A stretch of 64,000 nucleotides of DNA from Mucilaginibacter sp. (GCF_028287845.1 NZ_JAQBOW010000071.1:1-64000), one strand, 5' to 3'. Positions 41,364-44,908 are shown, counted from the first letter of the stretch. A program made the numbers and translations. Notes: generated by a model not told the origin, from the letters alone.

Positions 41364-41479
41364 TTGTTTGATAGAGTTTGCCGACTTAGCTAAATAATGG
41401 CAATGCCTGTTGTAATCCTTTAAGGCGCTATCAGTGAGCGATATAATGATAATCTTTTGTAAACATTAGGCATCTACAA

Positions 41480-41720
41480 GGGCAGACGCATTAAAATAAC
41501 TCAAAGAGTACCGCCTATATAAGGAGGCTCCAATAGGAGCCAAAATAGGGTTTGTCTCGTCCGTCTATAAACAGGGAGCTCCTCCGGAGCCAGTATTTGC
41601 TGAAACAAAGCGGACATTTGACTCCGGGGGAGTCACCTGTTTATAGAAAAGCTATAAAGTTAGAAAAGGCTCCATGGGAGCCTCCTAATGATGTGTATTA
41701 TTATTTTAATGAGTCTGCCC
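41480..41720. repeat. 241-bp structured repeat, copy 1
   Basis: The ends are GGGCAGACGCATTAAAATAA and TTATTTTAATGAGTCTGCCC, inverted with one mismatch. Inside are nested stems: GGCTCC-AATA-GGAGCC, GAGCTCCTCCGGAGC, GACTCCGGGGGAGTC, CTATAAACAGG...CCTGTTTATAG and GGCTCC-ATG-GGAGCC. Copy 2 (44626-44866) has the same length, with variable loops and kept stems. The 69-codon ORF here (41552-41761) lies mostly in the repeat and is not credible. Confidence 0.85.
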
Positions 41721-41791
41721 TGAGCCATCTACCCGTTGATAGGGTCTATTACGTAATTTAATCCTATCTTTATTTTCTAAACCTTAACGCA

Positions 41792-43135
41792 ATGATTAAA
41801 AAAAGACCCAATCTTTTATTGCTGTTCCTGATTTTACAAAGTTGCACCTATGCTCAAACTTTCAACAAAGCCAAGTTAGATAGTTTTTTTGTTGCGCTGA
41901 ACACGCGGGATGAAAACATGGGTAGCATCGCCATAGCTGCCAATGGAGTGGTGGTCTATCAAAACGCCATCGGTTATAGTCAGGTAAATAAAGGTTTAAA
42001 AACGCCAGCGACCATTGAAACTAAATATCGGATAGGCTCTATCAGTAAGATGTTTACCGCAACTATGATATTTCAGCTAATCGATGAAGGTAAGCTTAGC
42101 TTTGAAACGCGCTTGGCGAGTTATTTCCCACAACTTCCTAATGCCGGAAAGATCACCATAGGAGAAATGCTTGACCACCGTAGCGGTCTTCATAATTTTA
42201 CGAATGACTCGCTTTATAGGACATATATGAGCATCCCTAAGTCAGAAGCCGAAATGACCGCCATCTTTGCCAGGCAGAAACCCGATTTTGAACCGGATGC
42301 AAAGGCTGAATATAGCAATACCAATTTCGTGCTGCTGGGTTATATCATTGAAAAATTGACTGGTAAAACCTATGCCGAAGAATTAAAAAAACGCGTCACC
42401 ACAAAAATAGGCTTGGCAGACACTTATTACGGTACTAAAGCCAACCCAGCCAATAATGAAGCATACTCCTACGATTACGCAACACAGTGGACGCAAGTGC
42501 CCGAAACGGATATGAGTATTCCAGGTGGGGCTGGCGCGATTGTATCTACGCCGACTGACCTGATTAAATTTATAAATGCGCTTTTTGCAGGCAAACTCAT
42601 TAGCCAAGCTAGTTTAGAGTTGATGAAAACGATGAAGGACAATTACGGTATGGCCATGTTTGCCTTTCATTTTTTTAATGATAAAAACGGTTATGGACAT
42701 GCCGGAGGCATTGACGGATTTTCCAGTTTACTTATTTATTTTCCCGAGGATAAGCTGGCTGTAGCCTATATCTCCAATGGTATCAGGTATTCAACCAATG
42801 ATATTGTCAAAGGTGCATTAAGTATTTATTTTAACCGCCCGTTTTCAATCCCTGAGTTTAATGAGTCTAAAACGATTACACTAAATACTACTGACCTTGA
42901 TAAATATGTGGGTAAGTATACCAGTACCCAAATGCCACTAAAGATTGATATCACTAAAAACAATACCGTGCTGTTTGCGCAAGCCACTGGTCAGAGGGCA
43001 TTGCCGCTGGAAGCTAAAGGAGGTGATAAATTTGTTTTTTCTGCTGCTGGCGTTACTTTGCAATTTGAGCCCCGTAAAAAAACTTTTACTTTAACCCAAG
43101 GAGGAAAGACCTATTTATTTACTAAAACCGACTAA
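41792..43135 (+). CDS. Serine hydrolase, class C beta-lactamase/esterase family, secreted
   Basis: The 447-residue exported protein has an N-terminus LLLLFLILQSCTYAQ with a possible lipobox (LQSC). Family motifs: S-x-x-K in RIGSISKMFTA (Ser about 84), Y-x-N in AEYSNTNFVLLGYII (about 174) and GHAGGIDGFSS (about 303) in the third-motif position. The C-terminal 100 residues form the lipocalin-like DUF3471-type domain (YVGKYTSTQMPLKIDI). It could be a D-aminopeptidase-like enzyme, an esterase or a penicillin-binding-like protein; beta-lactam hydrolysis is not implied. It lies between the two 241-bp repeats with the esterase gene. Confidence 0.9.
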   Translation: MIKKRPNLLLLFLILQSCTYAQTFNKAKLDSFFVALNTRDENMGSIAIAANGVVVYQNAIGYSQVNKGLKTPATIETKYRIGSISKMFTATMIFQLIDEGKLSFETRLASYFPQLPNAGKITIGEMLDHRSGLHNFTNDSLYRTYMSIPKSEAEMTAIFARQKPDFEPDAKAEYSNTNFVLLGYIIEKLTGKTYAEELKKRVTTKIGLADTYYGTKANPANNEAYSYDYATQWTQVPETDMSIPGGAGAIVSTPTDLIKFINALFAGKLISQASLELMKTMKDNYGMAMFAFHFFNDKNGYGHAGGIDGFSSLLIYFPEDKLAVAYISNGIRYSTNDIVKGALSIYFNRPFSIPEFNESKTITLNTTDLDKYVGKYTSTQMPLKIDITKNNTVLFAQATGQRALPLEAKGGDKFVFSAAGVTLQFEPRKKTFTLTQGGKTYLFTKTD

Positions 43136-43305
43136 TGGGATTAAATTGTAAATTCGAGATTGACTGTCCGGTATGGGCTACAAAAGCCACTCAAAGGTGG
43201 CTTTTTTGCTTAGCTACAGCTTTGTCCTGTCATATCCCATTACAAGCCGACTAATAGCTTTTATATTAAAAACGAGGCCGAAGAAAGTAATTGATTGATA
43301 ATAAT

Positions 43306-43313
43306 TACATTTG
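43306..43313 (+). promoter_or_regulatory. Promoter -7 box (TACATTTG) of the esterase gene
   Basis: Exact TAnnTTTG match. The start site would be near 43320, which excludes the track's TTG start at 43311 and supports the ATG at 43332. Confidence 0.45.
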
Positions 43314-43331
43314 ATAAAACTCGCCCTGTAT

Positions 43332-44585
43332 ATGAAAAAAATATCCTTCATATCGCTATTTATTTCATGCTTTTTTACAGCCGGAGCGCAAACAATTAAG
43401 AATGCCAACCTCATTATTGGCAAGGTTGATAGTATACATTCTGAAATATTAAATGAAAACAGGCAGGTATGGATATATCTTCCTGCCAGTGCCGGCAATG
43501 TTATTTATGCCCGGCAACATTATCCTGTATTGTATTTATTAGATGCCGAAGATCACTTTACGTCGGTTACCGCAATGATTCAACAATTAAGCGAAATAAA
43601 TGGTAACACGGTAGTCCCCGAAATGATAGTTGTAGGAATAACCAATACAGACAGGACACGCGATCTTACACCAACCAATTCGCTGATTGGTTTTAATGGT
43701 AAAACAAACCCGGGATTAAAAACTTCCGGCGGCGGCGAAAAATTTGCAGCATTTATAGAAAAAGAATTGATGCCCCACATTGACTCTTTGTATGCCCCAT
43801 CACCTTATAAAGTAATAATTGGCCATTCACTTGGCGGGTTGGAGGTGATGTATATCCTGGTGCATCATCCCGGTTTGTTTAATGCTTATGTGGCTATCGA
43901 CCCAAGCATGTGGTGGGATTCCAGAAAATTATTGAACGAAACAGAGGGCGTGCTGGCCCAAAAAAAATTCGAAGGCAGATCTTTATTCATGGCGATAGCC
44001 AATACGATGCCTTCGGGTATGGATACGATGGAAGCCAGAAAGGACACATCTGCAGCTACCATTCATATCAGAGCTTTATTGACGCTTAATGAGGCCATAA
44101 GAAGCAACGCCGCTAACGGCCTGACGTTTGCTTATAAATACTATTATCAGGATAATCATGGGTCTGTTCCGCTTATTGCAGCGTATGATGCCCTGCATTT
44201 TTTATTCAACGGATTTGGTTTTACCGCAGACGAAATTGCTGAGTTTTTTGATTTAACTGTTAAGGTTGATGCAGCAACATTAATTAGCGATCATTATCAA
44301 CGGATTTCAAATCAAATGGGGTACAAGGTGCTTCCGCCGCAGTCATTGTTTGGCCTGATCGGTCGTTCCCTTTTGGTGAAAAATATGCCGGAGCAGGCCT
44401 ACTCGGTCTTCAGTTTATATCTCCATAATTATCCAGACAGCTTTAACGCAAATGATAGTTTTGGCGATTACTATAAAAGCAAAGGGGACACACAGCATGC
44501 GATTGAATATTATTTAAAAGCGCTTGCTATTTTGGAGAACAGTGATACAAGGGCAAAACTTAAGCAACTTCAGGAAAAGAATTAG
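43332..44585 (+). CDS. Secreted alpha/beta hydrolase, esterase D (Fes/IroE) type, with TPR-like tail
   Basis: The product has about 417 residues, with a signal peptide (FISLFISCFFTAGAQ). The esterase part resembles siderophore/feruloyl-type esterases: VWIYLPASAGN, YPVLYLLDAEDHF, the nucleophile elbow IGHSLGGLEVMYILVHHP (Ser about 166) and AIDPSMWW. The catalytic His is probably in YYQDNHGSVPLIAAYDAL. Residues about 340-410 look like one or two TPR repeats (AYSVFSLYLHNYPDSFNANDSF, GDYYKSKGDTQHAIEYYLKA). No siderophore genes are nearby, so the substrate is open. Confidence 0.9.
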   Translation: MKKISFISLFISCFFTAGAQTIKNANLIIGKVDSIHSEILNENRQVWIYLPASAGNVIYARQHYPVLYLLDAEDHFTSVTAMIQQLSEINGNTVVPEMIVVGITNTDRTRDLTPTNSLIGFNGKTNPGLKTSGGGEKFAAFIEKELMPHIDSLYAPSPYKVIIGHSLGGLEVMYILVHHPGLFNAYVAIDPSMWWDSRKLLNETEGVLAQKKFEGRSLFMAIANTMPSGMDTMEARKDTSAATIHIRALLTLNEAIRSNAANGLTFAYKYYYQDNHGSVPLIAAYDALHFLFNGFGFTADEIAEFFDLTVKVDAATLISDHYQRISNQMGYKVLPPQSLFGLIGRSLLVKNMPEQAYSVFSLYLHNYPDSFNANDSFGDYYKSKGDTQHAIEYYLKALAILENSDTRAKLKQLQEKN

Positions 44586-44625
44586 GAATTGTTGTAACCG
44601 CAGGAGTCCGCAAAGGACAAACTCA

Positions 44626-44866
44626 GGGCAAACGCATTAAAATAACTCAAAGCGTATCGCCTATATAAGGAGGCTCCAATAGGAGCCAAAAATAGGTTTG
44701 CATTGTCTTCTATAAACAGGGAGCTCCTCCGGAGCAATATTTGCTGAAACAAAGCGGACGTTTGACTCCGGAGGAGTCACCTGTTTATAGAAATAAGCTA
44801 TAAAGTTAGAAAAGGCTCCGATAGGAGCCTCCTAATAGCGCGTATTATTTTTTAATACGTTTGCCC
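44626..44866. repeat. 241-bp structured repeat, copy 2
   Basis: The ends are GGGCAAACGCATTAAAATAA and TTTTTTAATACGTTTGCCC. Compared with copy 1, the sixth base changed G to A and its partner C to T, keeping the pair. The internal stems GGCTCC-AATA-GGAGCC, GAGCTCCTCCGGAGC, GACTCCGGAGGAGTC and GGCTCC-GATA-GGAGCC are kept while loops differ. Flanking bases extend the pairing (CTC / GAG). Confidence 0.85.
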
Positions 44867-44908
44867 CGAGTACAAAGATCACAAGGCCAGGCATTATTTC
44901 CTTTTGCT

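Follow-up and report, generated by a model that had tools for sequence, protein, structure and literature searches.

A dispersed Mucilaginibacter repeat is an ISAs1-type MITE and probably carries a REP-like hairpin array of a subclass 1.2 Y1 transposase

The TnpA transposases of IS200/IS605 and the TnpA_REP proteins recognise a foot together with a hairpin in single-stranded DNA. In the REP/BIME (REPIN) systems of TnpA_REP (RAYT), small intergenic hairpins with a conserved foot are dispersed, occur in inverted sets, and are cognate to and flank a Y1 transposase gene present at about one copy per genome. The repeat described here shares these properties but departs from them in its foot, which is NA(G/C)G and not GTAG-type, in the number of units in an array (four, two of them direct and two inverted), in being linked to a class 1 transposase (Y-x3-Q-x2-HH) and not a class 2 enzyme, and in that many of the arrays lie inside MITE ends. 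Insertion sequences of the ISAs1 family leave target duplications of 8-10 bp, and in common with the present element, MITEs of this family have terminal inverted repeats (TIRs) that match ISAs1-family insertion sequences, target duplications of ~10 bp and no coding capacity; what sets the present element apart is that its interior is a REP-type array, and that different REP families sit within one TIR type. Those parts of the 2013 GTAG/CGTC survey that deal with A. variabilis and H. neapolitanus (PMC3733652) describe a similar arrangement, REP dimers that regularly lie within a longer conserved palindrome, although there the palindrome is not tied to a transposon family, whereas the frame of the present arrays has been identified as a MITE. 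TnpA_Y1 subclass 1.2 was defined by the signature DH[IV]H, WQ and Y-x3-Q-x2-HH in proteins of ~150 aa, and was listed without REP sequences (Quentin et al. 2018, PMC6006769). No pertinent publication turned up when the open-access literature was searched for Mucilaginibacter repeats and for REPIN/RAYT in Bacteroidota. We consider it likely that the interior of the repeat is a REP/BIME-type array of a subclass 1.2 Y1 transposase, and that an ISAs1-type MITE has captured this array as cargo.

The window, that is, the whole stretch of 64,000 nucleotides that was analysed, comes from a 3.7-Mb assembly of Mucilaginibacter sp. (GCF_028287845.1, NZ_JAQBOW010000071.1:1-64000). The original prediction described two equal-length 241-bp copies at 41480-41720 and 44626-44866, flanking a serine hydrolase and an esterase gene. 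Both copies are present there, 89% identical and with the loop and stem differences that had been quoted, and the gene pair between them encodes a beta-lactamase-family serine hydrolase and an esterase. The element extends 2 bp further on each side (41478-41722 and 44624-44868; 245 bp each), and both copies fold far more stably than their shuffled versions (z = -10.1 and -12.8, with 0/200 shuffles as good). The proposed search of the genome and its relatives yielded ~20 dispersed copies in the assembly, in both orientations and including the two in the window; in relatives there were also shorter matches, confined to the middle of the repeat. A composite transposon built from the two copies was ruled out, the copies being co-oriented and each having its own flanks. 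The features of the two copies are as follows.

41478 to 41722, plus strand: copy 1, entire element (an ISAs1-type MITE and its putative four-hairpin cargo); target duplication AGGCATCTAC / AGCCATCTAC
41478 to 41499, plus strand: copy 1 left TIR, AAGGGCAGACGCATTAAAATAA; the same ends are found on the ISAs1-family insertion sequence in L053
41526 to 41541, plus strand: copy 1 hairpin H1, GGCTCC-AATA-GGAGCC, with the foot AAGG immediately 5'
41565 to 41575, plus strand: copy 1 foot of H2, CTATAAACAGG
41578 to 41590, plus strand: copy 1 hairpin H2, GCTCC-TCC-GGAGC
41619 to 41635, minus strand: copy 1 hairpin H3, inverted unit, reading TGACTCC-GGG-GGAGTCA on the plus strand
41636 to 41646, minus strand: copy 1 foot of H3, CTATAAACAGG on the minus strand
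41668 to 41682, minus strand: copy 1 hairpin H4, GGCTCC-ATG-GGAGCC, inverted unit, with the foot CCTT 3' of H4 on the plus strand
41701 to 41722, minus strand: copy 1 right TIR, CAGGGCAGACTCATTAAAATAA
44624 to 44868, plus strand: copy 2, entire element, flanked by a degraded target duplication, AGGACAAACT / AGTACAAAGA
44624 to 44645, plus strand: copy 2 left TIR, CAGGGCAAACGCATTAAAATAA
44672 to 44687, plus strand: copy 2 hairpin H1
44710 to 44735, plus strand: copy 2 foot CTATAAACAGG and hairpin H2
44763 to 44790, minus strand: copy 2 hairpin H3 with its foot, inverted
44814 to 44829, minus strand: copy 2 hairpin H4, GGCTCC-GATA-GGAGCC, inverted
44850 to 44868, minus strand: copy 2 right TIR, CGGGGCAAACGTATTAAAA

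Three lines of evidence, namely the TIRs, the target duplications and an autonomous insertion sequence with the same TIRs, identify the outer part of the repeat as an ISAs1-type MITE. Aligned copies end in 22-bp TIRs, running from CAGGGCARACGCATTAAAATAA to its reverse complement, and a search allowing up to 3 mismatches gave 27 matches, versus 1 with the reversed pattern. Flanking duplications of ~10 bp matched at no fewer than 8 of 10 positions in 5 of 17 copies, as against none among all cross-pairings; examples from this genome are L007, with GGTGTCATAC on both sides, L009 (GCCAAAGCAT/GCCAAAGTAT), L002 (AAACCAACCT/AAACCAACCC) and L029 (AATAAGGCAT/AATAAGATAT). Copy 1 of the window (L001) provides a sixth, AGGCATCTAC/AGCCATCTAC, which matches at 9/10 positions by eye and stands outside the scripted tally, and in about two thirds of copies a clear target duplication is missing or decayed. 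The MITEs are noncoding and measure 199-331 bp in this genome and 171-411 bp in relatives. One locus in a relative (L053) holds a 1.25-kb insertion sequence bounded by the same TIRs, identical over 22 bp at one end and with 3 mismatches in 20 at the other, with AGCTTGCTA on either flank; it encodes a 367-aa transposase of the ISAs1 family (389 bits against a cut-off of 70), a family by which the MITE was presumably mobilised in trans. An intact ISAs1 gene was found in only 1 of the 61 genus genomes searched, and a search of the present genome (95% complete) found no ISAs1 transposase gene, which counts against the reading we favour. Interiors of this kind are also framed by TIRs of a second type, CAGGGAAATCGCTTTTAAA, which is present in 99 of 150 genus genomes; two elements with these ends in relatives (L038 and L055) have perfect 10-bp target duplications. 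Two individual loci may be mentioned here. L003 (C118:21017-21255 of this genome) has no target duplication, and its flanks extend the palindrome perfectly for at least 12 bases (GGCTGTATCAAA...TTTGATACAGCC), as if it had inserted in the middle of a hairpin. At L295 (G142:C83), a different MITE with the first TIR type lies in tandem, without the hairpin core.

Identification of the ends also accounts for a change in the terminal stem, G/C to A/T, that had been interpreted as compensatory. The two forms, CAGAC/GTCTG and CAAAC/GTTTG, are two TIR alleles: when 16 copies are compared, some have A in both TIRs at the variable position and some have G in both, but mixed copies occur too (L004, L010 and L017), and the two ends are unequal within most copies. 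There are thus genomic copies whose differences break the pairing, and because the alleles mix between ends, the terminal-stem change is no evidence of selection on folding.

The inner part has a fixed plan. Every full array consists of two direct and then two inverted foot-plus-hairpin units: H1 (GGCTCC-N3/4-GGAGCC); the foot CTATAAACAGG followed by H2, (A/G)CTCC-N3-GGAG(T/C); H3, inverted and followed by the inverted foot CCTGTTTATAG; and finally H4, also inverted. Each unit carries a 5' foot of the form NAGG or NACG, i.e., NA(G/C)G; the canonical GTAG-type foot is absent, and the array would therefore be a REP variant and not a canonical REP. In an alignment of 29 diverse modules, the local hairpins covary (0.137 versus 0.080 ± 0.006 when shuffled, 0/500), with 23 cells in which both sides have changed, whereas the long fold-back that is favoured on energy shows no covariation (0.088 versus 0.091 shuffled, 321/500); these are column-based counts, which we preferred to a hairpin search that chooses its arms by pairing, and kinship of the sequences inflates them, as it does the foot and linkage statistics given below. 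A giant single hairpin was accordingly ruled out as the selected fold. The proposal of selection on folding, and with it that of a DNA element recognised as a hairpin, therefore holds for the four local hairpins, where it is well supported, and fails for the terminal stem; selection on folding fails for the long fold-back as well. In one MITE copy of this genome (L017, C8:24521-24838), the H2-H3 part is tandemly duplicated.

The feet themselves vary in a concerted manner. When the variable letter is compared between outer and inner units, 77 cases are G/G, 40 are C/C, 36 are G/C and none are C/G (counts that kinship likewise inflates), and there is no base pairing between these outer and inner feet. 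This agreement in the absence of pairing looks like sequence recognition by a protein. Pairing between the two inner feet was considered as the reason for their similarity and rejected, both because 7 of 29 modules are unpaired at the variable position and because the outer and inner feet covary without pairing.

A candidate for such a protein is found beside the array in other members of the genus. The array marker lies within 600 bp of 16 of the 96 strong Y1_Tnp genes in the genus genomes, the array mostly beginning 15-25 bp past the stop codon and having no MITE ends. On the tree of Y1 proteins, the marker is present in 15 of 17 members of one supported clade and in 0 of 76 others, which needs 3 changes versus 14.2 when shuffled (a contrast enlarged by kinship); the two members without the marker are L153, whose array is a variant one, so that the count rises to 16/17, and L170, which ends at a contig edge. 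Across 150 genus genomes, the half-module pattern was found in 32 of 33 genomes with a clade gene versus 49 of 117 without one (p = 1.6e-9, again subject to kinship). No clade-member Y1 gene was found in the present genome (95% complete), and this also counts against the favoured reading. The clade proteins are ~150 aa long and contain DHxH, WQ (W95 Q96) and Y-x3-Q-x2-HH (Y115...Q119..H122 H123; alignment A2). NCBIfam models classify a clade protein as an IS200/IS605 transposase (77 bits, above the cut-off), and the model for REP-associated transposases gives 34.6 bits, under its cut-off of 80. Assigned by motif only, this clade of single-domain HUH/Y1 transposases would belong to TnpA_Y1 subclass 1.2, which it resembles in the DHxH/WQ/Y-x3-Q-x2-HH motifs, a length of about 150 aa, low copy number and occurrence in Bacteroidetes (PMC6006769). 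Unlike that survey, which has no REP for this subclass, we find a hairpin family beside the genes of each Mucilaginibacter clade inspected; this contradicts the published description of the subclass as lacking REPs, and not the assignment of the protein. In six genomes (G160, G181, G179, G128, G054 and G107), the clade Y1 gene has an in-frame stop and the repeats are kept, which suggests turnover of the Y1 transposase.

It is conceivable that the repeat is simply an ISAs1-type MITE, its interior hairpins being a mere by-product of palindromy, with no second transposase involved. TIRs, target duplications and an autonomous ISAs1 partner would suffice for the copies in this genome, where the Y1 clade is missing. 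Elsewhere, however, all 14 arrays next to genes of one Y1 clade lack TIRs, the association of the array with that clade is phylogenetically clean, and it is the local hairpins that covary and not the whole palindrome. We therefore think this reading unlikely, and the evidence already disfavours it strongly.

We see little chance that the array instead forms the ends of an ordinary, autonomous insertion sequence of the IS200/IS605 type, with the dispersed arrays being solo ends or deletion derivatives. For most genes the array is on one side only, the genes are 75-84% identical to the first and not near-identical copies, and there is usually 1 gene per genome against up to about 24 arrays; moreover, each array resembles a BIME, with four units arranged in mirror order and not one hairpin per end. 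These points weigh against the fact that the clade proteins score as IS200/IS605 transposases and have IS200/IS608-type enzymes as their nearest solved structures, and against a single gene (L143) that does have arrays on both sides.

That the repeat encodes a structured RNA, as the original prediction had also suggested, and one conserved as a riboswitch, an attenuator or a small RNA, is very improbable: the predicted RNA fold is very stable, the repeats are intergenic and often near genes, and a simple scan found 11 hairpin-plus-T-tract terminator lookalikes versus 3.4 expected, but the energy-favoured long fold is without covariation, and the idea is in effect ruled out by Rfam (no family above its gathering score, the sole match in the window being a tRNA), by a gene context in which neither the neighbour nor its orientation is constant (11 co-directional, 6 divergent and 4 convergent cases and 1 overlap with an ORF) and by the target duplications that flank the copies. 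Secondary effects of the repeats on host mRNAs are possible.

If the interior is a REP/BIME-type array nested in an ISAs1-type MITE, as we favour, a Y1 protein would bind, cut and spread it; in single-stranded DNA it would read each hairpin together with its NA(G/C)G foot, and cut or join at that place. An array would have entered the MITE by REP insertion, and an ISAs1-family DDE transposase, acting on the TIRs in trans and leaving ~10-bp target duplications, would later have spread the composite of array and MITE in this genome. We infer this order of events, as we do the activity and the cut sites. Spread of the composite by the ISAs1 transposase would explain why the array is abundant where both genes are lacking. 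The arrays may thus offer candidate DNA substrates for an HUH/Y1 class whose function has been open while its REP or IS ends were unreported, and the many natural sets of foot, hairpin and enzyme would make recognition rules comparable and open to simple cleavage assays. That one transposon type carries the recognition sites of another would constitute a route for REP spread, and such nesting would let REP sequences persist without their own transposase, as in the present genome.

Nesting of this kind seems to be recurrent. Array and TIRs occur independently of each other: none of 14 Y1-adjacent arrays has TIRs, versus 23 of 34 dispersed arrays with both, and some dispersed arrays have none. 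Three MITEs with the second TIR type (L302-L304) contain GGCTAAAGCC and CCGTCCC-type hairpins, like those adjoining another Y1 clade, so that the hairpin family of at least one other subclass 1.2 clade is also found inside MITEs. TIR-free arrays beside Y1 genes and other palindromes within MITEs show that the modules can be separated from the MITE ends and that the two have been joined more than once. The pairing of Y1 gene and hairpin is likewise not confined to one clade. Among Mucilaginibacter genes of other clades that share the signature, 48 of 75 have a perfect hairpin in the 200 bp downstream, versus 10 of 73 control stretches, and in Bacteroidota relatives (Dyadobacter, Chitinophaga and others), a foot plus hairpin lies within 300 bp downstream at 48 of 74 loci versus 1 of 70 control stretches (kinship again inflating these linkage figures). 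One tentative generalization, to which we would give somewhat less than an even chance, is that subclass 1.2 comprises a large number of REPtron-like systems across Bacteroidota, with a separate hairpin/foot code in every clade, and that their arrays are dispersed mainly through repeated entry into ISAs1-type MITEs, on which they then ride (a nested, two-transposase route).

Seven further Mucilaginibacter Y1 clades (L084-L157), with Y-x3-Q-x2-HH in nearly all rows, each have their own hairpin family beside their genes, for example, TAGCGATGGGTTT-GAAACCCATCGCTA, CCGTTGGCTAAAGCCAACGG and CTACCGAC..GTTCC-TAC-GGAAC. Five MITEs with CAGGGAAATCGCTTTTAAA ends (L302, L303, L304, L311 and L316) have interiors that resemble the hairpins of other Y1 clades.
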